Below are positions 7,832-63,031 of a stretch of 64,000 nucleotides of DNA, piece by piece. The notes below the pieces were generated by a model. It saw only the letters and a list, made by a program, of their open reading frames with translations. It was not told the DNA's origin and did no database searches. The translations under genes were made by a program, and so were the position numbers. The first letter of the stretch is position 1. The number at the start of each line of letters is the position of its first letter. The DNA is from a virus: IMG/VR virus record IMGVR_UViG_3300006923_000006, positions 1 through 64,000 of that record. One strand, 5' to 3'.

Positions 7832-8074
7832 ATGAGATTGACAGAACAGGAAATCATTGATAAGATTAATGGAAAGAAAGAACTCTGTTTTCTAACGCCA
7901 TCGACGGCGGCAGAAGCGAGAACTAAAAACCGACTAAGAGACCATGGCCCAAAATTTGAGATTATCAAAAAGGGTACGCCGGTTTGTATGGATGGTAGTT
8001 GTGCGTTGTTAGTTCGTAGCGTGAAAACTGATTGGACGGGATGGTTAGAAAATATTCAAATTATCATTGACTAG
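7832..8074 (+). CDS. Hypothetical protein (80 aa)
   Basis: Starts MRLTEQEIIDKINGKKELCF with AAGAAAG upstream. The second half is beta-rich (KKGTPVCMDGSCALLVRSVK). No family recognised. Confidence 0.55.
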   Translation: MRLTEQEIIDKINGKKELCFLTPSTAAEARTKNRLRDHGPKFEIIKKGTPVCMDGSCALLVRSVKTDWTGWLENIQIIID

Positions 8075-8094
8075 CGACCAAAGTAGAGTAAACT
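8067..8094 (+). promoter_or_regulatory. Promoter TTGACT-16-TAAACT
   Basis: TTGACT 8067-8072 and TAAACT 8089-8094, followed by the family's AGAAGCATAAGACA. A ~110-base leader precedes the gene at 8209, with a small GCAAC-ATA-GTTGC hairpin near 8133-8146. Confidence 0.6.
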
Positions 8095-8208
8095 AGAAGC
8101 ATAAGACAAAAGGAGAACATTGATTCCTGTACTGCAAGCAACATAGTTGCAAACTAAAAATCTGTTGTTAAAAGAAAAAGTTGATAGATTCCTAGAAGAA
8201 AGCAACAA

Positions 8209-8664
8209 ATGAAAACCCTAATTATCCACCATTTAGAAACAATGTGGGAATCTGGTTACAAAAAATTCGGCACTACTTTCTCTGATATTGCTGAAAAAAT
8301 TGTTTGCTATCTAGAAGAATCGTGTTACGATAGAGTTATACTAACGCGGTTTGAGGATGATTCTTTTGAGGATGAACATTTTGATACGGGGCTAGTTCAC
8401 TATATTGGCGAAATATATGATTACGCCTATGGTTGGCACCGTGATAGTCTAGACCTAGAAGACGACAGCAAATTGCCAGACGATTTCACAGAAGGAGGAT
8501 ACCATAGCGATATCGTATACGTGCCAGATTGGGTAAAATCGCTCAAAACGCATCAGGTTAGCTTGTGCGGTGCGTTTGATGGAGAATGCATAGAGGATAT
8601 GGAAATTGCACTAACAGCGGCAGAAGTCAAATTTGAACGTCTCAACGCATTAATAGTAGGGTAA
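8209..8664 (+). CDS. Hypothetical acidic protein (151 aa)
   Basis: Acidic protein with many Asp/Glu runs (RFEDDSFEDEHFDTG, DLEDDSKLPDDF) and aromatic residues. No motif recognised. A DNA-mimic role is possible on charge alone, but nothing specific supports it. Confidence 0.6.
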   Translation: MKTLIIHHLETMWESGYKKFGTTFSDIAEKIVCYLEESCYDRVILTRFEDDSFEDEHFDTGLVHYIGEIYDYAYGWHRDSLDLEDDSKLPDDFTEGGYHSDIVYVPDWVKSLKTHQVSLCGAFDGECIEDMEIALTAAEVKFERLNALIVG

Positions 8665-18880: not shown

Positions 18881-19206
18881 TGGAAGCTTGTAGTATATGT
18901 GGCGAGCCTAATAAAAAACTAGACACAGTACATACCAAGTGTTTATCACAACTACAAACATTATGTCATAAGTTTAATGCTGTACTTGAAATTAATAACT
19001 TATACACTGTGCCCAATTTACGAAAATTCATAACAGACGCTAAAAAAGAATCCAACGATGTTAAGCGACTCAAGAGAATCCTAGCTACTTATAAATTTAC
19101 AAACATAGCCTCTTTGCAAAGATATATTCGCGAATCCAAAAAACGAGACCAACTAGAAAAATGGCGGAAAATGGAAAAAAGAGCTATAGGAGCAGACGAT
19201 GATTGA
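18880..19206 (+). CDS. Zinc-binding hypothetical protein (108 aa)
   Basis: CSICGEPNKKLDTVHTKC at the N-terminus suggests a treble-clef-type zinc site; the remainder is a basic helical rod. It overlaps the NMNAT-like gene by 8 bases, so it may belong to the same operon. Confidence 0.6.
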   Translation: MEACSICGEPNKKLDTVHTKCLSQLQTLCHKFNAVLEINNLYTVPNLRKFITDAKKESNDVKRLKRILATYKFTNIASLQRYIRESKKRDQLEKWRKMEKRAIGADDD

Positions 19207-19786
19207 ACAATTAACAAAGCAAGGAAACCGATGTTATTATGAAAATCATTATTATAGATACTACGAACCTAACAAACTCTGGATTTATAGCGGAACATTT
19301 AATCCCCTGCATTCAGCACATTTAGAAATTTTCTTTCACGCAAAACGCAAGATTGGAGAAAAAGACTATCTTTCTTTTGAGACTCCGCTAAAACCATTTG
19401 ACAAAGAAGAAAAAGAGCGTAAACTAGAAGCAGTAGTTCAGCAATTCAATAATCTCTGTCTTCCTTTAATAGTTAGTGATTTTTCTAGCTTTATTGAAAA
19501 AAGAAAAAGACTTGGTGGATTGAATGGTTGTAATTTTGTAGTTGGCGACGATACTTTTAAAAGAATTTTTGACATATCGTATTATCATAACAGCAAAGCA
19601 GCAATGGAGAATTGTCTGGAATCATTAATAGGGTCCAAATTTCTAGTTTATCCTAGACATATGGGACAAACCGAATACAATATAGTATTAGATGATTTTC
19701 CGTATTTACGCGACAATTTCACTTTTGTTAGTGATTTTGCACCGGAGAATATATCATCGACTCAATTGCGGGAACAATCTGTATAG
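19199..19786 (+). CDS. NMN/NaMN adenylyltransferase-like protein (195 aa)
   Basis: YSGTFNPLHSAHLEI (residues ~31-45) is the nucleotidyltransferase motif GxFNPxHxxH, and ENISSTQLREQ near the C-terminus matches the ISSTxxR motif. Together these define the NMNAT/NadD-type family, which joins ATP to (nicotinate or nicotinamide) mononucleotide to make NAD(+) or its acid form. The gene for nicotinamide phosphoribosyltransferase lies 340 bases downstream, so NMN is the likely substrate. Length is usual for a single-domain enzyme. The start overlaps the preceding gene. Confidence 0.85.
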   Translation: MIEQLTKQGNRCYYENHYYRYYEPNKLWIYSGTFNPLHSAHLEIFFHAKRKIGEKDYLSFETPLKPFDKEEKERKLEAVVQQFNNLCLPLIVSDFSSFIEKRKRLGGLNGCNFVVGDDTFKRIFDISYYHNSKAAMENCLESLIGSKFLVYPRHMGQTEYNIVLDDFPYLRDNFTFVSDFAPENISSTQLREQSV

Positions 19787-20123: not shown

Positions 20124-21662
20124 ATGAACTTAACAGAATTCGCAAAAGGCAGAGTACAGATTCCATTCCCACTACAAGCAGACGCCTATACTATTGCTGG
20201 TGAGTGTTTGGCTAGTCCACAAGCTAAAAAGCAATCAACATACAATCTTACCAATCGGCGTAGTCCCGCAGAAGCTTGGCCAGACGTAGCCCAAGATTCT
20301 CGCATGGTGTTTTTTGGTTTGACACACTTTATCAGAAATCATTTAACCCAACATATTACCCACGAACAGATAGACCAAACCATTAAGTTTATGCAAACAG
20401 CACATTCGTTTGGTGGACAACTAAACTTTGACCCAAAACCGTGGCGAAGGGTAGTCAATGAATTTCAAGGTTATATGCCAATTCAAATCGTAGCATTGCC
20501 AGAAGGAAGTACATTCTTTCCTAATGAACCAGTAATACAAGTTTTTTCTCTTGATGAAGGTTTTGGAGAAATGGCGGCACATATCGAAGCTGTAATGCTA
20601 GGTATGGTATCTATTGCTACTGCTAGAGCTACGCTAGGTAGACATTGGTTAGAACAAATCCGAAACTATGTTAGACGAGACGTAGGGCACGATAAAGATA
20701 TTGTAGACCAAACTGCTAGATTTATGATTCATGATTTTGGTATGCGAGCTAGTAGTACGTCAGAGGAATCCGAATTACTAGGTTTGGCTCACCTATTAGT
20801 ATTTCATGGTACTGACACCTTTAACGCGGCGTATTTGGCTAGACAACTAGGAGCAGAACCACCAACGGGAACTAGTATTCTAGCATTAGCACACCGAATT
20901 GTGCAAGGATGGGATACAGAACACTGTGCCTTCTTTAACCAATATTGTGCTAGTCAAAAGTCTAACAAAGTTGCAAGTTATGTTGCAGATTGTTATAATT
21001 TTGACAAAGCTGTTAATCGTTTGGCTGAAATGGCCGACAAAGACAGAACAACAATTGTTGCCAGACCAGACAGTGGAGATTATGTCCAGAATGTTCTTGA
21101 CATCTTAAATAGTTCAGATAAAATTAGGTATATCCAAGGCGATAGTATGACGCCTACCAAAATTAACAACCTTATGAACCATCTATTAGACGAAGGTTTT
21201 CCAGCAACACAACGCGGAATTTTTGGCGTAGGAGGATATCTACGCAATACACCTAACAGAGATTCGCTAAGCAGTGCTTACAAACTATCTGCTGTTAGTG
21301 GATTAAATCCGAAAGTTAAACTTAGCGAGATTGAAGAAAAGGCTAGTATTCCTGGTCCTAATATTCTGACAAGAGAACATTGTAGTATTTACAGTCCAAC
21401 TACTTTTATGACTTATGAGGCAGACGCACAAGGTAAAGACGCACAGGTAGTATACTATGATGGTAACATGGTGAGTAAAGAATGTTTTGGTGATGTATGC
21501 TTGGAACCTTTTTCTGACATTCAATCGCGATGTATTAATGATTTTGATAAGTGGGAAAGCGTAGCAAAAAGACAACCAAATCTAGGACTAGGTAAGTTTA
21601 ATCTTTTTTCTACTGAAGTTAAACGTATTAGAAAAGAGACTTTTAACAAGTATAGGAATTAA
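20124..21662 (+). CDS. nampt: Nicotinamide phosphoribosyltransferase (512 aa)
   Basis: The motifs of NAMPT are in order: HDFGMRASSTSEES (cf. DFGYRGVSS), HGTDTFNAAYLA, ARPDSGD, YIQGDSM and GIFGVGGYL, all of which line the phosphoribosyl and nicotinamide sites in known enzymes. It converts nicotinamide plus PRPP to NMN. At 512 residues it is the usual full length. The neighbours, an NMNAT upstream and a Nudix hydrolase 3 bases downstream, complete a nicotinamide-to-NAD+ salvage route. In phages this gene pair is known to restore NAD+ depleted by NADase defence systems (NARP2-type), which is the likely role here. AACAGGAG ribosome-binding site. Confidence 0.95.
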   Translation: MNLTEFAKGRVQIPFPLQADAYTIAGECLASPQAKKQSTYNLTNRRSPAEAWPDVAQDSRMVFFGLTHFIRNHLTQHITHEQIDQTIKFMQTAHSFGGQLNFDPKPWRRVVNEFQGYMPIQIVALPEGSTFFPNEPVIQVFSLDEGFGEMAAHIEAVMLGMVSIATARATLGRHWLEQIRNYVRRDVGHDKDIVDQTARFMIHDFGMRASSTSEESELLGLAHLLVFHGTDTFNAAYLARQLGAEPPTGTSILALAHRIVQGWDTEHCAFFNQYCASQKSNKVASYVADCYNFDKAVNRLAEMADKDRTTIVARPDSGDYVQNVLDILNSSDKIRYIQGDSMTPTKINNLMNHLLDEGFPATQRGIFGVGGYLRNTPNRDSLSSAYKLSAVSGLNPKVKLSEIEEKASIPGPNILTREHCSIYSPTTFMTYEADAQGKDAQVVYYDGNMVSKECFGDVCLEPFSDIQSRCINDFDKWESVAKRQPNLGLGKFNLFSTEVKRIRKETFNKYRN

Positions 21663-21665
21663 GTA

Positions 21666-22160
21666 ATGCCACTACCTAAAATGGGTGTAACTGCCGACGT
21701 AGCATGGTTTCATATTAAACTAAACGAATATATGAATACTAGTGAAGTATACTTTCTGACAGTCAAACGTAAAAACGAACCGTATCGATACTGTCATGCT
21801 TTGCCGGGAGGTTTTGTTGAACTAAACGAGACTCTTAAACAAGGTGCTAGACGGGAATTGTTTGAAGAGACCCACGGCAATATTGATATGAAACGCCTAC
21901 ACTTTGTTATGATGCTAGACGGAGTTAAACGAGACCCAAGAGGCAGAACGATATCTGCTGTATTTACTACAATGACTTTTGGTGGTTGGAATGATACTTT
22001 TAGTTTTCCAGAACTAGAAGCTGGTGATGATGCAAGTGATTTAAAATGGATGAAACTAGATAATACTAATTTGTTGGCGTTTGACCACCATCTAGCTGTT
22101 GAACAAGCTTTTGCTAAGGCTAGTGAAATCTTTAAAATACCACAAGGAGCAATAGTATGA
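21666..22160 (+). CDS. Nudix hydrolase, ADP-ribose pyrophosphatase-like (164 aa)
   Basis: The Nudix box is complete: GGFVELNETLKQGARREL followed by FEETHG (GX5EX7REXXEEXG), residues ~43-66. The following RDPRGRTIS is typical of ADP-ribose pyrophosphatases, which split ADP-ribose into AMP and ribose-5-phosphate. Beside NAMPT this would remove ADP-ribose produced by NAD+ cleavage and feed PRPP precursors. A Nudix domain is part of the NARP2-type NMNAT in some phages; here it is a separate protein. Confidence 0.9.
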   Translation: MPLPKMGVTADVAWFHIKLNEYMNTSEVYFLTVKRKNEPYRYCHALPGGFVELNETLKQGARRELFEETHGNIDMKRLHFVMMLDGVKRDPRGRTISAVFTTMTFGGWNDTFSFPELEAGDDASDLKWMKLDNTNLLAFDHHLAVEQAFAKASEIFKIPQGAIV

Positions 22161-22366
22161 TAGAATTGGTAGTAGCTGTTTTTATATGGGTTATAATCAT
22201 AATTATTTCTGTATGTGCATTCTGGTCCACAACTTTGTTTAGCCTAATATGTTATAGTGAATACTTAGGCTTAAAAGCTAAAAAACGACTAAACCAGATA
22301 AGAGAAAAAGAACGCAAAGCCAATGCGGTATGGGAAAAAGGACTTAGAAGGAAAATAAATGAATAA
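22157..22366 (+). CDS. Membrane-anchored small protein (69 aa)
   Basis: Overlaps the Nudix stop (ATGA). One long hydrophobic segment (LVVAVFIWVIIIIISVCAFW) followed by a basic helix (LGLKAKKRLNQIREKERK). Function unknown. Confidence 0.55.
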   Translation: MIELVVAVFIWVIIIIISVCAFWSTTLFSLICYSEYLGLKAKKRLNQIREKERKANAVWEKGLRRKINE

Positions 22367-23150
22367 CTTTGGCGATAGAATGAAAAGTTATGAAAAAGCT
22401 TTTGATATCAGACTAAAACCACCATTTGTACTCCGTCTTGATGGCAGAAGTTTTTCTAAGTTTACTAAACAATTTAAAACTATAGACCATCATCCTTTCT
22501 CTGACGAGTTTAGTGATTGTATGGATTTAACATTGTCTCAACTTATGAGAGAAACCAATGCTAGATTCGGATACACACAAAGCGATGAAATTAGCCTATT
22601 GTTTACACAAGATAACCCAGAAAGTCAAACATTCTTTGATGGCAAACTACAAAAACTATGTAGTATAACCTCATGTATAGCCGCTAATACTTTTAATGAT
22701 AATCATGAGTATGGATTAGCTCAGTTTGATTGTCAGGGTTTTAATTTATCAGACGATGAAGTGTGGAATTACTTTTTTTGGCGAGAAAAAGACGCTGTCC
22801 GCAACAGTGTTAGTATGTTGGCCAGACATTATTTTTCACATAAAGAATGTCATAAAAAACCTACTGGTCAACTGATTGAAATGCTGCTAGATTTTGTTAA
22901 CGTAGATTGGTATAAAACGATAGATGACAGATTTAAATGGGGAAAACACGTAAAGTCTATACGAGTAGAACGCCGATACTCAACAATGGAAATCGCCAAA
23001 CTGCCAAGAAAACACGCCGCGAGAAAAAATCCAGAACTTTTAGTTGCAAGGAAAGAAATTCGTGATATGATACCATTGTTCAAAGCGAGAAACCACGGTT
23101 TTAGTCAACAAAAATTCCTCATGCAAGAAGACGCTTATGGTGTTAAATAG
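22359..23150 (+). CDS. Thg1-like 3'-5' RNA polymerase (263 aa)
   Basis: FVLRLDGRSFSKFTK (residues ~23-37) and YTQSDEISLLF (~72-82) are the two metal-binding motifs of the Thg1 superfamily, which adds nucleotides to RNA 5' ends in the reverse (3'-5') direction. Eukaryotic Thg1 adds G-1 to tRNA-His; bacterial and archaeal Thg1-like proteins repair 5'-truncated tRNAs, which is the likelier role here. The gene is full length and followed 13 bases later by an RNA ligase gene. The ATG overlaps the preceding gene after AGAAGGAAAA. Confidence 0.9.
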   Translation: MNNFGDRMKSYEKAFDIRLKPPFVLRLDGRSFSKFTKQFKTIDHHPFSDEFSDCMDLTLSQLMRETNARFGYTQSDEISLLFTQDNPESQTFFDGKLQKLCSITSCIAANTFNDNHEYGLAQFDCQGFNLSDDEVWNYFFWREKDAVRNSVSMLARHYFSHKECHKKPTGQLIEMLLDFVNVDWYKTIDDRFKWGKHVKSIRVERRYSTMEIAKLPRKHAARKNPELLVARKEIRDMIPLFKARNHGFSQQKFLMQEDAYGVK

Positions 23151-23163
23151 GTAACAATATACA

Positions 23164-24153
23164 ATGAATAAAAGCACACATAAATGTCCTGTTGTAACAA
23201 TCAAGATGGAACCACACCCAAACGCAGACCGTTTAGCAGTTGTACGAGTAGATGATTATACTGTTTGCGTAGCTAAAGATATGTGGGAAGATGGTCAAAA
23301 GGCTGCTTATATTCCTATTGAAAGTATTGTTGATACTGATATGCCAATGTTTAGCTTCCTTAAAAAGAACAAGAGATTCCAAAAGATTAAAACATGTAAA
23401 CTTCGTGGTGTTTACTCACAAGGTGTTCTTATTCCTGTAGACAATAGTTACGAATTAGGAACAGACTTAGCCGAACATTTTAATGTTCGTCATGACGACC
23501 CAGAAGCTAAGTTTGAGGCTAATTGTAAAAGTAGCGAAATCGCTGGTCCTAGTAGTTGGGCTGAAATCCCTAAATATGACGTTGACGCTTTGTTAAAGTA
23601 TGGTAGTGATTGGTTTAATGAAGATGAAGATGTTATGGTAACGGAAAAGGTTCATGGTACTAACTTCCGTTGTCTTTACTGTGCTGACACTGGAAAGTTT
23701 TATGTTGGTAGCCGTAAACAATGGCTTGCAGAACAAGATGGTTGTTTGTATTGGAAAATATTTCGGAATTGTCCAGAACTAGCTACTTTCTGTAAAGAAA
23801 ATCCTCAATACATGTTTAGAGGAGAAGGTTATGGTATGCAAAAACACTATACTTATGGTATTACTGATGGTAAGTATGGAGTAGTAGGTTTTGACCTTAT
23901 GTATAAGAATAGAACATATGTTAGTTCTCGACTTCTTAGGAACATGCTAAAAACATATGATATCCCGCAAGTGCCATTAGTTGGTGTGTATGGTTACAAT
24001 CTTGAACTAATGCAAGAACTAGCAGAAGGTCCAAGTCTACTCGGTGGTAGTTCTCCAAGAGAAGGCATTGTTGTCAAACCTCTTAAAGAATGTCAAAGCG
24101 ATACGTTTGATAGGGTTATTCTTAAACTTATTGGTAGTGGATATAAAGGATAA
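23164..24153 (+). CDS. Rnl5-type ATP-dependent RNA ligase (329 aa)
   Basis: An N-terminal OB-fold module (residues ~1-110: HPNADRLAVVRVDDYTVC) precedes a nucleotidyltransferase domain with motif I VTEKVHGTNFR (Lys the adenylylated residue), FRGEGYG, EGIVVKP (motif IV) and ILKLIGSGY (motif V). This order, OB-fold first, is that of the Deinococcus DraRnl (Rnl5) family, known to seal 3'-OH/5'-phosphate nicks in RNA. Directly downstream of the Thg1-like gene, it suggests an RNA end-repair pair. Confidence 0.9.
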   Translation: MNKSTHKCPVVTIKMEPHPNADRLAVVRVDDYTVCVAKDMWEDGQKAAYIPIESIVDTDMPMFSFLKKNKRFQKIKTCKLRGVYSQGVLIPVDNSYELGTDLAEHFNVRHDDPEAKFEANCKSSEIAGPSSWAEIPKYDVDALLKYGSDWFNEDEDVMVTEKVHGTNFRCLYCADTGKFYVGSRKQWLAEQDGCLYWKIFRNCPELATFCKENPQYMFRGEGYGMQKHYTYGITDGKYGVVGFDLMYKNRTYVSSRLLRNMLKTYDIPQVPLVGVYGYNLELMQELAEGPSLLGGSSPREGIVVKPLKECQSDTFDRVILKLIGSGYKG

Positions 24154-24823: not shown

Positions 24824-25537
24824 ATGAAATACATGGGTAGCAAAAATCGTCATGCTAAACATATCTTACCTATTGTCTTAAAAGACCGAACAGAAGACCA
24901 ATGGTATGTTGAACCTTTTGTTGGTGGTTTTAATGTGATTGATAAAGTAGACGGCAAAAGAATAGGTAACGATATTCACTTTTATTTAACAGAGTTATTT
25001 AAGGCTGTTCGTGACGGATGGGAACCTCCTTCTGTAGTACCAGAAGACCTATATAAACACATTAGGCTAGATAAAAAGAATTACAGTCCAGAATTGGTTG
25101 GTTTTGTAGGTTTTGGCTGTTCGTATTCTGGTAAGTGGTTTGGTGGTTACGCAAGAGGAAACGACAGTAAGGGCAATCCGCGAAATTACGCCAACGAGAG
25201 TCGGAAAAATATTCTTAAACAAGCTGACAAGATTAAAAATGTAATAATTGAGAATGCGTACTACTGGAATTTACACATACCACCCAAAAGCATTATCTAC
25301 TGTGACCCTCCATACGCCAATACTACCAAATATGCTGAAGATTTTAATCATGAAAAATTTTGGGAGTGGACTAGACAACGAGTAAAAGAAGGGCATAATG
25401 TCTTTATAAGTGAGTACACGGCACCAAGCGATTTTGTTTCTGTGTGGGAAAAATCGGTTAATAACACTTTAGTTAAAAATACTGGTTCAAAACGTGGTAT
25501 TGAAAAGCTTTTTGTATGGAGAAATAATGAACGATAA
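24824..25537 (+). CDS. Dam-type (D12 class) adenine DNA methyltransferase (237 aa)
   Basis: KYMGSKNRHAKHILP (cf. the KWAGGK motif), VEPFVGGFNV (FxGxG-like SAM site) and IIYCDPPYANT (DPPY catalytic motif) identify a D12-class N6-adenine methyltransferase. Dam enzymes usually methylate GATC, but this window appears to contain no GATC (see findings), so the target may differ. An 8-codon mini-ORF (24801-24827) with AGAGGA overlaps its start, suggesting translational coupling. Confidence 0.88.
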   Translation: MKYMGSKNRHAKHILPIVLKDRTEDQWYVEPFVGGFNVIDKVDGKRIGNDIHFYLTELFKAVRDGWEPPSVVPEDLYKHIRLDKKNYSPELVGFVGFGCSYSGKWFGGYARGNDSKGNPRNYANESRKNILKQADKIKNVIIENAYYWNLHIPPKSIIYCDPPYANTTKYAEDFNHEKFWEWTRQRVKEGHNVFISEYTAPSDFVSVWEKSVNNTLVKNTGSKRGIEKLFVWRNNER

Positions 25538-25718
25538 AGAAAAAGTAAACGGCTTTATTAAACAACGTAGTGTCTTAGTAAGCTTCTGTAAGGCTTGCGA
25601 AATATATACGGTTCATTGTCCAGAATGTCAGGCTAACTATTGTGGTGTTGGATGCTCGTGTAATAAGACGTTTCTTAAACTTCAACAACATGCATTAGAT
25701 GTACTATTTGACCAATAG
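25527..25718 (+). CDS. Cys-rich small protein (63 aa)
   Basis: Overlaps the methyltransferase end. CKACEIYTVHCPECQANYC and CSCN make at least one zinc site. Unknown role. Confidence 0.55.
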   Translation: MNDKEKVNGFIKQRSVLVSFCKACEIYTVHCPECQANYCGVGCSCNKTFLKLQQHALDVLFDQ

Positions 25719-25739
25719 ATAGACTTAAGGACAAACAAG

Positions 25740-26504
25740 ATGAACCAGATAATAAATAAAATCTATAACGAAAATTGTCTTGCAACTACAAAAAGAATGC
25801 CAGATGATTTTGTAGACTTGACGGTAACTTCTCCACCATATGACGACCTAAGAAAATACAACGAATATTCGTTTGATTTTGAAAGTGTTGCTAAAGAACT
25901 GTTAAGAATAACTAAACCAAATGGCGTTATTACATGGGTGGTTTCTGACAGTAGTATCGGTGGTGGAGAAACACTAACGTCTTTTAAACAGGCTTTGTTT
26001 TTCAGAGATATTGGTTTTACAATTAATGATACTATGATTTATACAAAACCAAACAGAAGACCTAGACAATATAGCGCACATAGATATGAACAAATTTTTG
26101 AGTATATTTTTGTATTAGTCAAAGGAACGAAAAGTAAAACATTTAATCCCATAGAAGAAAAGTGTTTAAACGCTGGCAAAACGATTAACTTTTCGTCTAG
26201 GGACCACGACGGCGATAAAATAAATACTAAAAAAACAGTGAAAGTAAAAAAGACAAAAAGAAAAGGTAATATATGGCACTACACTAACAATAGTACTGGA
26301 ATAAATCATCCAGCTATATTTCCTGAACAATTAGCAAAAGATATGATTATAAGCTGGAGTAATGAAAACGATATAGTGTATGACCCCTTTATGGGCAGTG
26401 GAACCACTGCTAAAGTATGTATTCTAAATAACAGAAATTATATTGGTTCTGAAATATCAGCAGAATACTGTAAAATAGCTAAACAAAGGATACTAAATGG
26501 CTAA
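25740..26504 (+). CDS. DNA methyltransferase, TSPPY type (254 aa)
   Basis: VTSPPYDDLRKY (motif IV, residues ~30-41) comes before DPFMGSGTTAKV (motif I, ~217), the beta-class order of N4-cytosine or N6-adenine methyltransferases. It is full length for a stand-alone enzyme without a cognate endonuclease nearby. It overlaps the PARP gene by 8 bases. Likely protects phage DNA from host restriction. Confidence 0.9.
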   Translation: MNQIINKIYNENCLATTKRMPDDFVDLTVTSPPYDDLRKYNEYSFDFESVAKELLRITKPNGVITWVVSDSSIGGGETLTSFKQALFFRDIGFTINDTMIYTKPNRRPRQYSAHRYEQIFEYIFVLVKGTKSKTFNPIEEKCLNAGKTINFSSRDHDGDKINTKKTVKVKKTKRKGNIWHYTNNSTGINHPAIFPEQLAKDMIISWSNENDIVYDPFMGSGTTAKVCILNNRNYIGSEISAEYCKIAKQRILNG

Positions 26505-28059
26505 TAAACTCAAGCGTAGCACAATCCCAACAGGACATACCAAAAACGATTTTCAATGTTATGGTCCTCCTGCTCTTAAAGATGGTCAATTTGACGGTAC
26601 TATGATTTGTGATATGGGTTGTTTTAAACAAGGAGAATGTGATTCAAATAAATACTATAATGCCGCAGTAGTTCAATCTAATGTTAACAAAGGGTGGTAC
26701 ACGTATTTTGAATATGGTCGTACAGGACAATCTTCTAAGCCACAATTTCAATTTATCGAATGTAGTTCAAAAGAAGAAGCACAAAGAGAGTATTGTAAGC
26801 AACTACATTCAAAAAATGATAAACGCGGTATGTGGGTTAATCATCCCATTCTTGGTCGTCAGTTACAACCTAAACCAAACAAGGATTGCTATCTAGTAAG
26901 ACCACAAGCAACTAGAAGTACTGGTTTACCTAGTGCTAAGACTATTGTTGCAGAGTCAGAGGTAAAGGTTAAGACAACTTCAAGGAAAAATACTATTAAA
27001 TCCGCGATTGATACCCAAACAGCTAGTCTTTTGCGAGATTTGAATGTGGGAACGGTTAATTACACTCGTAGTAGTATGGCCGATAGTGCTTTACCTACTA
27101 TATCTGCTATTGCGGAAGCTAGGATGATTTGCGATGAAGCTACGAAGGTGGCTAACACCTTAACCGACGATTTTGAACACAACAAAGAACTTGTAAATCT
27201 AACTAATATGTTGTATGGTCGTATTCCCAAAAAGAAAGACCGCAAAGATACTAATTGGGTATTGACACCGCAAAATATTGCTATGTGGCGACAAGACCTA
27301 GACGCTTTCGAGTCTGCTAGTGGTGCCGCAATTGACATTGAAGAAATTACGGAATGTCCACTGTCTGCTATGAATTTACGCAAACTTAAGTACGTGCCTA
27401 AAAACTCAGAAAAAGGCGGGTTTATCTATGACTGGATGAAATCCGCAAGTAAAAATGTACACCGGCAATACGGTAGTCTTAAGATTAAAAATCTGTGGTA
27501 TGTTGAGAGAGTTGGCGATATTGATAAGTTGGCTACGGCACAAAAAAGAATTGCTAACAATCCCGTACCTAAAAATGCAGAAAAACCACTGTTTCAACCA
27601 CGGAAAAGACTTGACACAATTGACAAAGAACTGTATACTAATAGTGGTACACATATGATGTTTCATGGTACTCGTTCTGTTAACGTGACGGGAATTCTAA
27701 GAGAAAGCCTACGAATGCCAAAAACTCTTTCTAATGTAGTTATTACAGGCAGTATGTTTGGTGACGGGCTATATTGGGCTGATGACTGGCGAAAATCCGC
27801 AGGTTATACATCTTTGCGTAATAGTTATTGGTCAGGTGGTGATGGTCGTGTTAAAAACCGAAATGCTTTTATGTTTGTGTGTGATGTTGCGTTAGGTAGA
27901 CCATGGATTGCTCCTAGTAGCGGTGCTTATAACGGACCACCAAAAGGTTATCATTCTATCTTTGGTAAATCAGGTCGCTCTGGTGTACAAAACAATGAAT
28001 TTATTACTTTTAATCTAGATACTCATAGACTTAGGTATCTTGTGGAGTTTGACGCATGA
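26497..28059 (+). CDS. Poly/mono(ADP-ribose) polymerase with WGR domain (520 aa)
   Basis: Residues ~55-130 contain the WGR-type segment GWYTYFEYGRTGQ. The C-terminal ~200 residues have the PARP catalytic triad motifs: MMFHGT (His), GDGLYWADD (Tyr) and NNEFITFN (Glu), i.e. the H-Y-E set of chain-forming PARPs. A helical regulatory-like domain (ISAIAEARMICDEATKVA) precedes the catalytic domain, as in eukaryotic PARP1/2. It transfers ADP-ribose from NAD+ to protein or DNA. The N-terminus (CYGPPALKDGQFDG) is unfamiliar. PARPs are rare in phages. A WGR-ligase and a macro domain follow in the same operon. Confidence 0.92.
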   Translation: MANKLKRSTIPTGHTKNDFQCYGPPALKDGQFDGTMICDMGCFKQGECDSNKYYNAAVVQSNVNKGWYTYFEYGRTGQSSKPQFQFIECSSKEEAQREYCKQLHSKNDKRGMWVNHPILGRQLQPKPNKDCYLVRPQATRSTGLPSAKTIVAESEVKVKTTSRKNTIKSAIDTQTASLLRDLNVGTVNYTRSSMADSALPTISAIAEARMICDEATKVANTLTDDFEHNKELVNLTNMLYGRIPKKKDRKDTNWVLTPQNIAMWRQDLDAFESASGAAIDIEEITECPLSAMNLRKLKYVPKNSEKGGFIYDWMKSASKNVHRQYGSLKIKNLWYVERVGDIDKLATAQKRIANNPVPKNAEKPLFQPRKRLDTIDKELYTNSGTHMMFHGTRSVNVTGILRESLRMPKTLSNVVITGSMFGDGLYWADDWRKSAGYTSLRNSYWSGGDGRVKNRNAFMFVCDVALGRPWIAPSSGAYNGPPKGYHSIFGKSGRSGVQNNEFITFNLDTHRLRYLVEFDA

Positions 28060-28331
28060 TAAATAAAAGACCAGACGAATTTAAATCCCTAGCGGGTAAA
28101 GTAGACCACTTAGAATATTGTGCTAAATATGAAAACACAGAAGTAGGCGAACATTGGTCTGCTTTATCTCGTTTGTGCGGATATACTTATTGTATGGATG
28201 ATGATTTTGTTAAAGCTTTAGAAGCAGAAGTTGATAGTCAAATCATGTTTTTACATTCAGACTGGGAATGGGTAGAAGAAGAAGAAACATATACTCGTAA
28301 AACCAAACGACTTAAACACTACGGAGAATAA
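28056..28331 (+). CDS. Hypothetical acidic protein (91 aa)
   Basis: Overlaps the PARP stop (ATGA) and lies in the PARP-ligase operon. Acidic and Trp-rich (FLHSDWEWVEEEETY). Function unknown. Confidence 0.55.
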   Translation: MINKRPDEFKSLAGKVDHLEYCAKYENTEVGEHWSALSRLCGYTYCMDDDFVKALEAEVDSQIMFLHSDWEWVEEEETYTRKTKRLKHYGE

Positions 28332-28332
28332 T

Positions 28333-28548
28333 ATGAGTTTTTTCAAACCAAAAGGTATTCTGTTTGCTGTTTATATGAAAAGCGGTAACGTAATTAGATT
28401 TCGGGCTAATGATTTGGAATATATAAACGGTAAACAAACCGGCGGTAATCTAATCAAAGAAATGTCTTGGGCACATGTTTCAAACAAACTTAAATTATCT
28501 ACCATTGACGTAGACCAAATTGAAGCTATTGTAAGGGAATCAGAATGA
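28333..28548 (+). CDS. Hypothetical protein (71 aa)
   Basis: Beta-type sequence (GILFAVYMKSGNVIRFRAND). Starts 1 base after the previous stop and overlaps the ligase start (ATGA). Unknown. Confidence 0.55.
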   Translation: MSFFKPKGILFAVYMKSGNVIRFRANDLEYINGKQTGGNLIKEMSWAHVSNKLKLSTIDVDQIEAIVRESE

Positions 28549-29660
28549 AACTACCAACACTCTACAAACGCTCAAGCGTAGGTAAGTTACAGTCGTGGAA
28601 TATATGGTGTGGTGATGGCTTTTTTGAAATAGATTGGGGACAAGTTGACGGTGCAAGACAACTTAAACTCAAAAATAACATCAAGGGAAAAAATATTGGT
28701 AAAGCCAATGAGACCGATAGTCTAGAGCAAGCTGCATTTGAGGCAAGAAGCAAATGGAAAAAGCAAATTGATAAGGGGTATTCGGAAACTATCCCGGCAG
28801 AAGACGAGAAAAAGTTTTTGCCTATGCTTGCACAAAGATATGATAAACACGCAAAGAAAATTACTTTTCCTGCATACTGGCAACCCAAACTAGATGGTCT
28901 AAGGTGTACTGCTCATTTTGAGAACAATAAGGTTGTGCTTAAATCTAGACGTAATAAGGTGTTTTCTGTTTTACAACATATTGAAGAACATCTTTGGCCT
29001 CGTATGGATGAAAATATTGTTTTTGATGGAGAATTATATACTCATGGCGAAGATTTTCAAAAACTGGTATCTGCTATTAAACGTGATGAAAAATCGGATT
29101 TTAGTAACAAAATTCAATTACATGTTTATGACATTTACTTTAAAGACGAACCTGATATGAGTTTTGAACGAAGATGGCAAGAATTGTCATTGTTTTTCCC
29201 TGTTTTTGAATATAAAAATCCCACCAAACATAAAGTATGTCTAGTCCGTACCAAACCTGTAAATAATGTTCAACACGTTCTTAATGCTCAAGAACTCGCG
29301 TTAGCGTGGGGTTATGAGGGAATCATGCTTCGCAACTCTCACGGGACTTATGAAGTTGACCGTCGCTCATATAATTTGCAAAAAGTCAAAAAATTCCTTG
29401 ACAAAGAGTACAAAATAGTCGATACTAAAGAAAACGAAAACATGAAAGGAACTTGTGTCTTTGTTTGTGTGACCGAAACCGGCACGCGATTTAAGGTTAT
29501 GCCAGAAGGAAACCAACAACAACGCCAAGAATACTGGAAAAATTCCGATAAATACATTGGAAAACTCTTGACAGTTAAGTTTTTTGAGTATACAACTAGT
29601 GAAAACCCCGTACCAAGATTTCCGATTGGAACCGGAATTAGAAATTCTTGGGATATGTAA
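28545..29660 (+). CDS. WGR-fused ATP-dependent polynucleotide ligase (371 aa)
   Basis: Residues ~10-80 form a WGR-like domain (LQSWNIWCGDGFFEIDWGQV). The rest is an ATP-dependent ligase: motif I YWQPKLDGLRC (adenylylated Lys), ENIVFDGELYTHG (motif III), LHVYDIYF, GYEGIMLRN (motif IV), LQKVKKF (motif V), and a C-terminal OB domain (GTRFKVMPEGNQQQR). WGR domains in PARPs read DNA breaks, so this is plausibly a break-directed DNA ligase working with the phage PARP two genes upstream. RNA as substrate cannot be excluded. Confidence 0.9.
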   Translation: MKLPTLYKRSSVGKLQSWNIWCGDGFFEIDWGQVDGARQLKLKNNIKGKNIGKANETDSLEQAAFEARSKWKKQIDKGYSETIPAEDEKKFLPMLAQRYDKHAKKITFPAYWQPKLDGLRCTAHFENNKVVLKSRRNKVFSVLQHIEEHLWPRMDENIVFDGELYTHGEDFQKLVSAIKRDEKSDFSNKIQLHVYDIYFKDEPDMSFERRWQELSLFFPVFEYKNPTKHKVCLVRTKPVNNVQHVLNAQELALAWGYEGIMLRNSHGTYEVDRRSYNLQKVKKFLDKEYKIVDTKENENMKGTCVFVCVTETGTRFKVMPEGNQQQRQEYWKNSDKYIGKLLTVKFFEYTTSENPVPRFPIGTGIRNSWDM

Positions 29661-29671
29661 GGAGAATCATA

Positions 29672-29845
29672 ATGCCCTGCCGTGAACCCTGTTTCTATTG
29701 TGATGATTTACAAGTTGTTGATGAACCAGTATGCCATTTGTGTGAATGTAACGAACCTCACAGCAGTTGTGATGATAGTTACTATATTGTCATAGAATGT
29801 CCAGTATGCCAAGAGGAGGATGAAAGGATAGATAATGCAAACTAA
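29672..29845 (+). CDS. Cys-rich zinc-binding protein (57 aa)
   Basis: ATG after AAGGAGAATC. Twelve cysteines within 57 residues (CREPCFYCDD, CHLCEC, CPVCQ), i.e. at least two zinc sites. It overlaps the macro-domain gene. Unknown partner. Confidence 0.6.
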   Translation: MPCREPCFYCDDLQVVDEPVCHLCECNEPHSSCDDSYYIVIECPVCQEEDERIDNAN

Positions 29846-30371
29846 ATACCATATTGGAGATGCAACACGACCAATCATGGACAATGGGGGTAATCACCTT
29901 ATATTGCACGTTTGTAATGATTCGGGAGGATGGTCAAGTGGTTTCGTTATGGCTCTTAGTAAAAGATGGAAAGAGCCAGAATCAAGATATAAAACTTGGC
30001 ATCTTAATAATGAAGAATTGTTTGGAGTGCAAAATAATCCATTTAAACTTGGTCGTGTTCAATACTTTAAAGTAGACCACCGTTTATGGGTAGGCAACAT
30101 GATTGCTCAATCAGACCCTGGTGGATTTGAAGATTTCCCGCCAATTCGGTATCAGTCTCTCGAAGAGTGTTTTATGCGAATTCGAGCGAATGCGGTGGAA
30201 GGTCTAGCAAACGATGCTATAATTACTTTTCATGGACCCCGATTTGGTTCGGCTTTAGCTGGAGGAAAATGGTCAAAAGTTATAGGGATTATGGAACGAG
30301 TTTTTGAACACGTTGATATTGAATTCCATGTGTATGACCTAGAAGAAATAGAAGGAACAATCTATGAGTAA
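29835..30371 (+). CDS. Macro-domain protein, ADP-ribose binding/processing (178 aa)
   Basis: LILHVCNDSGGWSSGFVMAL (residues ~22-41) is the macro-domain nucleotide-binding loop with the NDxGxxxxGF pattern, and AIITFHGPRFGSALAGG (~130) is the second glycine-rich loop. Such domains bind ADP-ribose and remove it from proteins, RNA 2'/5' ends or O-acetyl-ADP-ribose, or dephosphorylate ADP-ribose-1''-phosphate. In an operon with a PARP it is likely the eraser. The link to RNA ligases in this window also fits processing of ADP-ribosyl products of RNA repair. Confidence 0.88.
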   Translation: MQTKYHIGDATRPIMDNGGNHLILHVCNDSGGWSSGFVMALSKRWKEPESRYKTWHLNNEELFGVQNNPFKLGRVQYFKVDHRLWVGNMIAQSDPGGFEDFPPIRYQSLEECFMRIRANAVEGLANDAIITFHGPRFGSALAGGKWSKVIGIMERVFEHVDIEFHVYDLEEIEGTIYE

Positions 30372-30389: not shown

Positions 30390-31439
30390 ATGAACAAAAT
30401 AAAAATTACTTACAGTAAAAACGTAAACAAATACTATATTAGTAACGACAAGGGAAGTTTATCACAATATCTTAGTAGAGATTTACAATGGAATCTTTCG
30501 TGTATCACCTGTTGGTATAAAACAAAAGGAGAAGCACAAAAGACCGTTGATAGATACTTGGAAAAATGGAAAAGTATTCAACACAATCGTCACGGTTATT
30601 ACATAGTGATTGGTCGTCGTCAATGGGTGTCTAAAAACCTAAAAATAATTGATGACACCAATGGTAGTTCGCCAAAATGGTCAGGATATCATACCACATA
30701 TCAAGACGCTGTTGACACATATAACAAATACCTATTAAACACAAAGGAGAAAGAAATGCAAGACAACACAAATTCAGAATGGGAAGATGACGTTGATGAA
30801 ATCCTAGACACTTTTTGTGCTTTGGACCAGGTATTTACTGCTTATGACGTAAGTAAAGAGGTTCAGCGTGTAAGGAAAGATAATGATTTGTCTTTTGTTC
30901 GTCATGACACTATGAAAAACTATATTCATGCTCAAATGCTTGCTGAAAAAATGAGTGTACGTCAAGACGGTTTGTATGCTAGAGAACTACGCGATAGCGT
31001 CAATAGTATGCGACTACCTAGTAGAGCATGGGTGTACTCACCCGTTACGAATGATGCAGACGACACAGACGATACGAACGACAACACATGTGACAACAAC
31101 AACAGTAGTGGTTGTGCTACTGGTTGTGGTAATGTATGTAGGAAGCCTTCTACGGGAGTTAATTTCGACAAACGTGGTGGTGTATGTATCTCTAATAAGC
31201 TACTATCACAAATTGGCGTACATGCTGGAGATATGGTGCGGATTTACGAAAATGGCGTTAATAGCTTTTTGGTAAGCAAAGACCCAATTACTGGAACTCA
31301 ACCACTTGCTACATACACAGCTACACATAGCGGTAATGTTCGTCCTCGCAAAAAGGTGATTGAACAATGTGGATTGTGTGGACAAAACCTAGTTGGTCAG
31401 ATTAATGGTGGCAAACTTATTGTCGCTACAAAAGGATGA
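30390..31439 (+). CDS. Hypothetical protein with AbrB-like C-terminal domain (349 aa)
   Basis: The N-terminal ~110 residues hold two strand-strand-helix repeats (YSKNVNKYYISNDKG; HNRHGYYIVIGRRQWVS). After an Asp/Asn/Cys-rich linker (DDTDDTNDNTCDNNNSSG, CATGCGNVC), residues ~250-300 (NFDKRGGVCISNKLLSQIGV) resemble an AbrB-type swapped-hairpin DNA-binding domain. An in-frame ATG at 30756 with AAAGGAGAAAG could start a separate 227-residue form. A 9-codon ORF couples it to the macro-domain gene. Confidence 0.6.
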   Translation: MNKIKITYSKNVNKYYISNDKGSLSQYLSRDLQWNLSCITCWYKTKGEAQKTVDRYLEKWKSIQHNRHGYYIVIGRRQWVSKNLKIIDDTNGSSPKWSGYHTTYQDAVDTYNKYLLNTKEKEMQDNTNSEWEDDVDEILDTFCALDQVFTAYDVSKEVQRVRKDNDLSFVRHDTMKNYIHAQMLAEKMSVRQDGLYARELRDSVNSMRLPSRAWVYSPVTNDADDTDDTNDNTCDNNNSSGCATGCGNVCRKPSTGVNFDKRGGVCISNKLLSQIGVHAGDMVRIYENGVNSFLVSKDPITGTQPLATYTATHSGNVRPRKKVIEQCGLCGQNLVGQINGGKLIVATKG

Positions 31440-31921
31440 ATAATATGCTAATAATTATGAGGTCAATTCCCGGCGCGGGAAAATCAACTCTTGCCCAAAA
31501 AATAAAAGACAAACTAGAAAGTCCTCTGTGTTATATTTGCAGTACAGACGACTACTGGAAACGACCAGACGGTTTATACGACTTTAACTTCAAGCTATTG
31601 GACACTGCTCACACATGGAATTTTATTCGTGTGTGCTACGAACTAAGATTAAATCACGATGTAATCGTCGATAATACTAACACGACTTGGAAAGAATTTT
31701 CTAAGTATGTGATGTTTGCTAAAGAACACGGACACGAAGTCTTTCTAGCCGAACCCGAAACCGACTGGAAATTTGATGCTCAAAAATGTTTCGAGAAAAA
31801 TACACACGGTGTTCCACTAGAATCAATTCAGAAAATGCTTGACAGGTGGGAAAATTCTGCTACAATTTGTAAAACTCATGATTTGCGGTATTTTGATGTA
31901 AACTATAATTACAATTTTTAG
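31436..31921 (+). CDS. Polynucleotide kinase-like P-loop protein (161 aa)
   Basis: SIPGAGKSTLAQKI is the Walker A loop, STDDYW the substrate-side Asp motif, and VDNTNTTWKEF the typical N4BP2/PNK family motif. Similar to the kinase domain of T4 Pnk without the phosphatase domain; it would phosphorylate RNA or DNA 5'-OH ends. Its overlap with the upstream gene and position 9 bases before a T4 Rnl1-type ligase strongly suggests a kinase-ligase pair for tRNA repair. Confidence 0.85.
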   Translation: MNNMLIIMRSIPGAGKSTLAQKIKDKLESPLCYICSTDDYWKRPDGLYDFNFKLLDTAHTWNFIRVCYELRLNHDVIVDNTNTTWKEFSKYVMFAKEHGHEVFLAEPETDWKFDAQKCFEKNTHGVPLESIQKMLDRWENSATICKTHDLRYFDVNYNYNF

Positions 31922-31930
31922 GAAAACAAG

Positions 31931-33031
31931 ATGCTAGAAGTACAAAAATGGTTGCGAGAATTCAACTGTCTTGACAGACTAAAAGACCAACTTGGTATCA
32001 AGTCTACCGTACACGAAGACGGGCGGGTTATCTTGAACTACGGAATGATTGATAGTCCCAAGCGGCATAAAATTGTACGAGAATGCAGAGGCTTAGTTCT
32101 TGACAGTAAAGATGATTGGAACTTAGTAGCTCGGTCGTTTTTTCGGTTTTTTAATTTGAATGAAATACCGGAAGAAACTGACGAATTCGTATGGGAAAAT
32201 TGTAATATCCAACATAAAGAAGATGGTTCTTTGTTGGTAGTCTATTACTATAAAGGCCAATGGCATGTTAACACTAGAGCAAGTTTTTCAACTGGTCAAG
32301 TCGGAGACAATCCGATTACATTCCGCGAACTTGCCTTAAAAGCTATTCCAGAAAGCTTTTGGAACAACGCCAATAAATCTAGCACTTACGTATTTGAATT
32401 GTGTTCATTGTATAACAAGATTGTACGTACATATCAAACACCTACTGTATTTCTTCTTACAGTATTTGATGGACTACATGAAATTGCTCCTAATTTTGTA
32501 GATAGTGAAGCTAGAATTACGGGTGTACAAAGACCACAAAGTCTACGTTTTGAAAATATCGAACAGGTTCAAGAATATCTCAACATAGAATCTAATAAAG
32601 ACAAAACATTTGAGGGAGTGGTATTAAGAGATATTAATAATCTGCGTATTAAATGTAAAAACCAAAATTATCTTTGTTTACACAGAATGAGTAATAATGG
32701 GTCTCCGTGTAGTCCTAAAAATGTATTACCCTTTGTGCTTGCTGGCGAATTAGATGAATTGTTTTTGTTTTTCCCCGAAGTTAAAGAATACGCATTACAA
32801 ATTAAAGCCAAAGTTGATAAATGGCAACAAGAGATAGACGACTTATGGTATGTGTGGGGCGATATTGAAAATCAAAAAAAGTTTGCCCTTCGCGTTAAAG
32901 ACCATCCGTTTTCTGGCTGTTTGTTTAAGGCTAGAAAAATGAGTACCAATCCTGTTGACGAATTTAAAAACAATCCTAACGCTATTTTAAAGAGATTACT
33001 TAAAAGATATGAAAACAAATTATTTATATAA
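31931..33031 (+). CDS. T4 Rnl1-type RNA ligase (366 aa)
   Basis: HKEDGSLLVVYYY contains motif I (KEDGS, Lys adenylylated), RECRGLVLD upstream is typical of the family, FEGVVLRD is motif IV and RIKCKNQNYL motif V. The C-terminal domain is helical, as in T4 Rnl1. T4 Rnl1 with Pnk reseals tRNA cut in the anticodon loop by host anticodon nucleases; the same two activities are adjacent here. It is the second RNA ligase in the window, besides the Rnl5 type at 23164. Confidence 0.92.
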   Translation: MLEVQKWLREFNCLDRLKDQLGIKSTVHEDGRVILNYGMIDSPKRHKIVRECRGLVLDSKDDWNLVARSFFRFFNLNEIPEETDEFVWENCNIQHKEDGSLLVVYYYKGQWHVNTRASFSTGQVGDNPITFRELALKAIPESFWNNANKSSTYVFELCSLYNKIVRTYQTPTVFLLTVFDGLHEIAPNFVDSEARITGVQRPQSLRFENIEQVQEYLNIESNKDKTFEGVVLRDINNLRIKCKNQNYLCLHRMSNNGSPCSPKNVLPFVLAGELDELFLFFPEVKEYALQIKAKVDKWQQEIDDLWYVWGDIENQKKFALRVKDHPFSGCLFKARKMSTNPVDEFKNNPNAILKRLLKRYENKLFI

Positions 33032-53324: not shown

Positions 53325-53397
53325 GGGCGCATAATCCAACAGTAGAGATAACACTCTTAAACAGTGTCCAGTCTCGGTGCAAATCCGAGTGCGCCTA
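53325..53397 (+). tRNA. tRNA-Leu(UAA)-like with short variable loop
   Basis: GGGCGCA/TGCGCCT acceptor, ACACT-CTTAAAC-AGTGT anticodon arm (anticodon UAA) and CTCGG-TGCAAAT-CCGAG T-arm, 73 nt. The D-region is weak (ATCC...GAGAT). Leucine tRNAs normally have a long variable arm; this one has only CCAG, and the T-loop begins TG instead of TT. Charging with leucine is therefore not certain. Confidence 0.8.
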
Positions 53398-53460
53398 CTT
53401 GTATAATACAATGTTCTGTCCGAGGCACGAACGAATAACAAAAACAGCGGTTCAACTTCG

Positions 53461-62959: not shown

Positions 62960-63028
62960 GCCAAGATATGCTGGTGCAAAAGCTGCTTTCATAAGGCAGT
63001 ACTGAGGGTTCGTTTCCCTCTCTTGGCT
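62960..63028 (+). tRNA. tRNA with CAU anticodon (Met/Ile type)
   Basis: GCCAAGA/TCTTGGC acceptor, CTGCT-TTCATAA-GGCAG anticodon arm (anticodon CAU), GAGGG-TTCGTTT-CCCTC T-arm, discriminator T: 69 nt. The D-arm is short (GCT...AGC). It could be elongator Met or a lysidine-modified Ile tRNA. The next gene starts 4 bases after its end. Confidence 0.75.
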
Positions 63029-63031
63029 CTT

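Follow-up and report, generated by a model that had tools for sequence, protein, structure and literature searches.

A 64,000-nt stretch from a large phage (IMG/VR virus record IMGVR_UViG_3300006923_000006, positions 1 to 64,000; hereafter the window) encodes a poly/mono(ADP-ribosyl) transferase (PARP) in one gene chain with an ATP-dependent DNA ligase and a macrodomain ADP-ribosyl hydrolase. The most consistent neighbour of the PARP in other phages is not the ligase, but a protein with an unnamed domain, here called FTA. We tentatively propose that the PARP is a DNA-end-activated ADP-ribosyltransferase, which would be controlled by the FTA protein, reversed by the hydrolase and used in phage-host conflict, with the ligase probably a bystander.

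Gene chain and its surroundings

Six plus-strand ORFs from 26497 to 30371 overlap or nearly abut, and the chain starts inside a methylase gene (25740-26504). The first-pass annotation had placed PARP, ligase and macrodomain genes in this chain; all three are found at these positions, and the similarity scores for the PARP, the ligase, the ligase WGR domain and the macrodomain are far above chance. No function is assigned to the ORFs at 28056-28331 (91 aa) and 28333-28548 (71 aa), both on the + strand and without a credible family match, or to the Cys-rich ORF at 29648-29845 (65 aa, + strand), which is likewise without a family match. Counts of promoter and terminator patterns across this stretch of genes were close to the shuffled expectation, and an Rfam scan of the window returned no family at gathering score. 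Also on the + strand lie genes resembling NMN adenylyltransferase (NMNAT; 19199-19786) and nicotinamide phosphoribosyltransferase (NAMPT; 20124-21662), and a Nudix gene (21666-22160) that resembles the Nudix half of NMNAT/Nudix enzymes. This cassette at 19-22 kb is a plausible NAD+ supply for the ADP-ribosylation genes.

The PARP has a WGR-HD-ART-like architecture

The 520-aa PARP (26497-28059, + strand) matches the Pfam PARP family with 69.2 bits (cut-off 26.7) and, in its N-terminal part, the WGR family with 33.9 bits (cut-off 22). Its WGR domain (aa about 37-125, 26605-26871) is followed by a helical, HD-like and putatively regulatory domain (aa about 173-291, 27013-27369) and by the ART catalytic domain (27376-28056), in which the H-Y-E triad of H390, Y426 and E501 is intact and invariant in 28/28 relatives. 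The DNA-contact residues of the WGR domain, with positions taken from PARP2 (PMC8190142), are invariant among the relatives aligned as well (N51, K52, G74, R75 and K106), and the WGR profile retrieves the WGR domains of PARP1, PARP2 and PARP3. The W of the motif is a Y in the window protein (YGR), as is usual in bacterial PARPs (PMC5966428). As determined with Foldseek, the AlphaFold2 model (pTM 0.80) matches DNA-bound human PARP1 WGR-HD-ART over 542 aligned columns (E 2e-22), and also DNA-bound PARP2. The helical region has no match to Pfam PARP_reg; it is visualized between WGR and ART in the secondary structure of the model and is covered by the full-length Foldseek match. The order of WGR, helical and ART domains is common to the window protein and human PARP1, PARP2 and PARP3, with the equivalents of N129, K130 and R153 conserved, whereas zinc fingers and BRCT are lacking in the window PARP and identity in the structural alignment is about 17%. 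The PARP resembles the human enzymes and probably senses broken DNA.

The same three domains, the H-Y-E triad and the YGR motif occur in WGR-PARPs of bacteria and phages (C. difficile CD160 PARP; Xanthomonas phage XacN1, BBA65562.1; Klebsiella phage FBKp34), from which the window clade differs by extra sequence at the N terminus (aa 1-45) and by an insertion that follows the WGR domain. As lone query, the PARP had no match in the viral contig set, and a two-sequence PARP alignment yielded a single one, a frameshifted and truncated WGR remnant (L003). Phage PARPs have already been noted (PMC7824862, PMC9503650); in the open-access literature we found them listed and no study of them, and the phage-PARP literature found does not mention their FTA partner or hydrolase neighbours.

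The ligase N terminus is a divergent WGR fold

The 371-aa ATP-dependent DNA ligase (28545-29660, + strand) consists of a nucleotidyltransferase domain (Pfam DNA_ligase_A_M, 81.6 bits) and an OB domain, and its catalytic motifs are intact, with K115, D117, G118, R120, D161, G162, E163, E258, G259, R263, K280 and K282 invariant. Its N-terminal domain (aa 1-80, 28545-28784) has no WGR match in Pfam. By hhalign it matches WGR at 93.4% with a score of 41.2 (column shuffles, n=100, reach at most 15.8), and its predicted structure (pLDDT about 92) has the WGR protein 2ra8 as first PDB match (E 0.035, probability 1.00). As judged by profile and predicted fold, the domain is a divergent WGR fold. Compared with the PARP WGR motif, only the G is invariant, W is present in 1/36 ligases and the R position is mostly Q; the set of W-G-R and N-K residues typical of PARP WGR domains is not conserved in the ligase N terminus. 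The earlier reading that PARP and ligase each carry a WGR domain thus withstood structural comparison of both segments, the ligase copy being the divergent one.

The domain is probably a nick-DNA-binding one. Its profile matches the N-terminal domain of the ASFV DNA ligase AsfvLIG at 70-119 (PMC6344480). The DNA-contacting AsfvLIG residues K85, N86, K89, N91, Q98 and S105 align with K49, N50, K53, N55, Q62 and S69 of the window ligase, and this AsfvLIG-type loop/helix is kept across ligases (n=36; N50 in 34/36, N55 in 34/36, Q62 in 36/36, K or R at K53 in 35/36 and K49 in 25/36). With 120 aa and 7 strands, the AsfvLIG domain exceeds that of the window ligase in size; it was published as a novel fold (PMC6344480). 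NCLDV and phage ligases carry the same N-terminal domain as the window ligase.

Such ligases are not confined to phages with a PARP: matches over at least 80% of the window ligase occur in 1,016 phage records, and a PARP is present in 1/50 sampled contigs with a window-type ligase. The notion that the WGR-ligase fusion is rare was dropped, this ligase type being common in phages. Probably, the ligase is a bystander, an ordinary viral nick-sealing enzyme sharing the operon.

An FTA-domain protein is linked to the PARP

The PARP-linked partner (30390-31439, + strand) combines the FTA domain (aa 124-228, 30759-31073; hmmsearch E 1.8e-27 with a profile built from 8 sequences, the window one among them) with a C-terminal segment of weak AbrB/MazE-like resemblance; a MazE domain is detected in its homologue L188. 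No credible family was found for the FTA domain in Pfam or the PDB. FTA genes occur in 31/108 PARP loci vs 0/80 control ligase loci (raw Fisher p 4e-9, ignoring relatedness), corresponding to 14/47 PARP clusters at 60% identity and 6/21 at 45%. In phage PARP loci they always lie on the same strand, downstream of the PARP. When viral contigs were scanned with nothing but the FTA domain, six were retrieved, and all six encode a PARP, one of them previously not known. FTA is not a universal partner, because it is absent near 77/108 PARPs.

Among 392 Planctomycetota genomes, PARP and FTA are present in the same two and are adjacent there (2 of the 7 seeds of this FTA search came from Planctomycetota). 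In the Planctomycetota loci L184 and L182, a window-type PARP lies 45 and 7 bp, respectively, downstream of an RT_XIII gene (516-518 bits) that encodes an FTA domain at its N terminus and is preceded by a SWIM_XIII gene (607-635 bits). This neighbourhood is seen in 2/7 bacterial loci; one further locus has FTA alone. The type XIII retron (PADLOC RT_XIII, SWIM_XIII, WGR_XIII) has a WGR protein among its listed components. A search of L182 and L184 for a retron RNA found none. In contrast, the phage PARP has no adjoining RT or SWIM gene, and the phage FTA domain is joined to the MazE/AbrB-like segment instead of an RT; the window genes scanned near the PARP include neither RT_XIII nor SWIM_XIII, the pair being seen only in L182 and L184. 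The retron beside FTA and PARP in some bacteria is of an anti-phage type.

ADP-ribosyl hydrolases near the PARP

The 178-aa macrodomain protein (29835-30371, + strand) has no Pfam match; similarity and residues predict an ADP-ribosyl hydrolase of the SCO6735/BT1257 type (BT1257, 110 bits; SCO6735, about 103 bits across the whole domain). In the alignment with SCO6735, which cleaves thymidine- and Asp/Glu-linked ADP-ribose (PMC9411070), the equivalents of catalytic H24, V25, N27 and Q85 are kept, and the window protein differs by Ala at the G128 equivalent. In huge phages, an ADP-ribosyl hydrolase is often encoded near window-type PARPs, ARH in the relatives and the macrodomain in the window. 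ARH is unrelated to the macrodomain. It lies within 10 kb of the PARP in 6/10 records having ARH vs 0.6 expected, with 5 of these 6 from one clade (p 0.04 after collapsing), and L188 is a further PARP locus with hydrolase linkage. An eraser in all PARP phages was rejected, as ARH occurs in 10/50 and a PF01661 macrodomain in 19/50 records, mostly far from the PARP.

Proposed mechanism and alternatives

The core of the module that we favour would comprise the WGR-HD-ART PARP, the FTA-domain protein and an ADP-ribosyl hydrolase, here the macrodomain. Binding of the WGR domain to a 5'-phosphorylated DNA end or nick would relieve the helical domain, and the ART domain would move ADP-ribose from NAD+ onto an acceptor close by, which might be DNA, a DNA-bound protein of host or phage, or the PARP molecule. 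Restraint or direction of the PARP would come from the FTA protein, whose MazE/AbrB-like part may contact DNA or the promoter of the operon. The macrodomain would strip mono-ADP-ribose from Asp/Glu or thymidine, and nicotinamide released by the PARP could be recycled by the phage NAMPT and NMNAT. By association, such a module most likely serves conflict between phage and host or between phages, and not routine repair. Rather more doubtful is a further proposal, namely that FTA regulates, by binding a PARP to which it is dedicated, an effector module not recognised before, in which FTA-RT_XIII would control the WGR-PARP in bacteria, and FTA-MazE, PARP and hydrolase would represent in phages a hijacked or neutralised defence or a weapon against rivals.

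We consider it unlikely that the genes form a repair circuit, in which the PARP marks phage DNA breaks, the WGR-ligase is recruited to these nicks and closes them, the mark is erased by the macrodomain and the NAD+ cassette provides the fuel. Such a circuit agrees with the shared gene chain, two real WGR domains and the NAMPT, NMNAT and Nudix genes close by, with a PARP two genes from a ligase in Cellulophaga phage phi4:1, and with an ATP ligase within 6 kb of the PARP in 11/24 records vs 2.5 expected. With related phages collapsed, however, this linkage amounts to 4/16 vs 1.5 expected (p 0.04), and the window ligase type is common without a PARP. Among the window-type PARP records searched, a WGR-ligase adjoins the PARP only in the window and in LR756511 (L002), a 595-kb phage; in G001, PARP and ligase are 108 kb apart, and the remaining records had no ATP-ligase match. 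The control contigs and the position test ruled out the ligase as a conserved PARP partner. The dedicated trio of writer, sealer and eraser postulated in the first-pass annotation is therefore only partly supported: a hydrolase near the PARP is a repeated pattern, but the ligase is not specifically linked, and the full trio, expected to be conserved in related phages, was found only in the window.

No better are the chances that the PARP modifies host proteins like T4 Alt and Mod, the ligase and macrodomain being independent genes together by chance. Host takeover has been proposed for phage PARPs (PMC7824862, PMC9503650) and ARTs are frequent in jumbo phages (PMC9503650), but it leaves both the recurrent FTA partner and the hydrolase linkage unexplained, and the WGR-HD architecture speaks for a DNA-controlled enzyme. 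Slightly less probable still, the macrodomain may counter DarT-like DNA ADP-ribosylation by the host rather than erase the marks of the phage's own PARP. For SCO6735, reversal of DarT marks and protection of cells are on record (PMC9411070), most PARP relatives have no macrodomain neighbour, and in G003 and G005 related macrodomains lie about 44-74 kb from the PARPs, so that the macrodomain could serve another purpose. Yet in the window it is encoded downstream of the PARP at a distance of a few genes, whereas relatives have a nearby ARH instead, and G000 has no ARH.

The conserved partner gene and the hydrolase neighbour provide testable handles on phage PARP function, and the link to the type XIII retron suggests that retrons can use a break-sensing ADP-ribosyltransferase as effector. 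A WGR fold in the common N-terminal domain of viral ligases, if shown, would also account for the domain of the ASFV ligase, which was reported to lack known relatives.

PARP and its gene chain

The first-pass annotation placed a PARP, a ligase and a macrodomain protein in one overlapping gene chain, and this observation is confirmed. Within the 163,651-base record, the chain starts with a methylase (25740-26504) and proceeds through the PARP (26497-28059), two short open reading frames, the ligase (28545-29660), a 65-aa open reading frame and the macrodomain gene (29835-30371); next lies a gene (30390-31439) carrying a domain named FTA in this analysis, after its F-T-A motif. A D12-class and an N6/N4-type DNA methyltransferase gene (24824-26504) are located immediately 5' of the PARP, the second, ending at 26504, overlapping the PARP start. 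The chain is flanked by an RNA-repair neighbourhood (22359-24153 and 31436-33031) encoding Thg1-like, DRB0094-type RNA ligase, polynucleotide-kinase-like and T4 Rnl1-type RNA ligase proteins; tRNA-Leu (taa) and tRNA-Met (cat) are found at 53325-53398 and 62960-63029.

The PARP scores above the Pfam curated cut-offs for the catalytic domain and WGR alike. Residues H390, Y426 and E501, as well as N51, K52, G74, R75 and K106 of the WGR domain, are invariant in 28 relatives, and the structure model (pTM 0.80) matches DNA-bound PARP1 and PARP2 across the WGR, helical and ART domains. Together, these data bear out a PARP with an intact H-Y-E triad and a WGR domain. PARPs in jumbo phages have already been noted, with host modification as the suggested role (PMC7824862, PMC9503650). 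In the related phage contig L003, what is left of the PARP is a frameshifted N-terminal stretch with the WGR (7947-8376), followed by no catalytic domain. Very large plasmids, 300-1,170 kb in size, also carry WGR-PARP genes (L009-L013 and other plasmid matches); their hosts include Vibrio, Pseudomonas, Variovorax and Paenibacillus, and in Pseudomonas sp. FeN3W the PARP is followed by an RNA 2'-phosphotransferase gene.

A widespread ligase with a divergent WGR domain

The ligase possesses the full set of adenylation motifs. Pfam returned no WGR match for the window protein itself, and among 36 relatives WGR was the top family (4 matches, best E 0.009). Profile-profile comparison of the ligase N-terminus with PARP WGR domains gave 93.4% and a score of 41.2, compared with a best score of 15.8 for 100 column-shuffled control profiles. 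The predicted fold of residues 1-80 is confident (pLDDT about 92), and its top PDB match is 2ra8 (modest E of 0.035, probability 1.00), which the PARP WGR profile itself finds at 7e-9. Matches in a viral model library include pithovirus, solivirus and asfa-like virus DNA ligases, a phage WGR protein and a phage NAD+ ADP-ribosyltransferase. Because profile comparison, predicted fold and structural matches agree, the proposed WGR domain of the ligase stands, but in divergent form, with the motif's W and R mostly not retained.

In addition, the ligase profile hits the ASFV DNA ligase within its N-terminal domain (window 28545-28784; PDB 6imj 70-119; E 1.9e-4). That domain, described as a novel fold, is linked here to the WGR-like domain of phage ligases. 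The ASFV residues known to contact nicked DNA (PMC6344480) align with window K49, N50, K53, N55, Q62 and S69, positions mostly conserved in 36 phage ligases. On the simplest reading of these alignments, the WGR domain would be the ligase's own nick-binding part.

PARP and the WGR-ligase occur together in the 595-kb phage LR756511, and in another compared record, G001, they lie 108 kb apart; the other window-type PARP records searched gave no ATP-ligase match. An ATP ligase is located within 6 kb of the PARP in 11 of the 24 records having one (2.5 expected), but after collapsing related phages in 4 of 16 (1.5 expected; p 0.04, a rough value, with positions and collapsing entered by hand). One large phage-contig clade (L134-L150 and relatives) carries a T4-type DNA ligase 2-5 kb upstream of the PARP and is devoid of an FTA gene. 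At least 80% of the window ligase is covered in 1,016 phage records, and when 50 contigs were sampled for this ligase type, just one encoded a PARP. The idea of a writer, sealer and eraser operon thus holds in part: the PARP core and a nearby hydrolase remain, but the sealer most probably belongs to a WGR-bearing type of viral ligase that is ordinary and widespread.

Hydrolases near the PARP

ADP-ribosyl hydrolase (ARH) genes, unrelated to the macrodomain, follow the PARP, in the same orientation, in L002, L094, L095, L096, L098 and L188, and one precedes it in L106. Among 10 records having ARH, 6 place it within 10 kb of the PARP (0.6 expected); five of these represent one clade, and the collapsed test yields 2 of 6 (p 0.04, equally rough owing to manual entry). 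The window record lacks ARH and has the macrodomain in its place. In phage locus L112 (8800-10229), an FTA gene separates a divergent PARP from a PF01661 macrodomain gene 1.3 kb downstream. On DNA, the hydrolase SCO6735 takes off ADP-ribose linked to thymidine; on protein, it acts on ADP-ribose attached to Asp/Glu (PMC9411070). Since the window macrodomain retains equivalents of SCO6735 H24, V25, N27 and Q85, it could reverse the PARP's modification or defend against DarT-like toxins of the host.

The FTA partner and type XIII retrons

The FTA domain (~95 residues) recurs in genes that neighbour other PARPs. A profile built from 8 phage copies, the window copy among them, finds L182, L184, L180, L141, L112 and others absent from the seeds. 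Iterated searching detected FTA at 31 of 108 PARP loci versus 0 of 80 control loci (raw Fisher p 4e-9, ignoring relatedness); with the PARPs clustered at 60% identity, 14 of 47 clusters have FTA, and at 45%, 6 of 21 do. Scanning viral contigs with the domain alone retrieved six, five of them known PARP contigs; the sixth, new contig has a PARP gene too, with about 14 kb between it and FTA. Two of 392 Planctomycetota genomes have a PARP; FTA is confined to these two as well, next to the PARP. Pfam and PDB searches with the domain revealed no credible relative; the C-terminal part of the FTA protein is MazE-like in L188.

Window-type PARPs at 46-53% identity reside among ordinary bacterial genes in Planctomycetota contigs, which derive from metagenome bins and may be imperfectly assigned. 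In two bacterial loci, SWIM and reverse transcriptase genes of a type XIII retron lie directly 5' of the PARP (L182 1270-5070; L184 5167-8956). PADLOC identifies SWIM_XIII (607-635 bits) followed by RT_XIII (516-518 bits), whose N-terminus is an extra FTA domain, and the PARP starts 45 bp (L184) or 7 bp (L182) downstream. PADLOC lists a WGR protein as an additional type XIII component, and one bacterial PARP gives a weak match to it through its WGR domain. L180 carries FTA outside an RT_XIII/SWIM_XIII neighbourhood; L178, L179 (with little sequence downstream of its PARP) and L181 gave no FTA match.

An open-access literature search found no description of the FTA partner, of a PARP-hydrolase neighbourhood in phages or of a type XIII retron with a PARP; as most subscription papers were outside its scope, these negatives are not proof of novelty. 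The interesting core is the PARP together with its regulator-like FTA partner, with a hydrolase close by.
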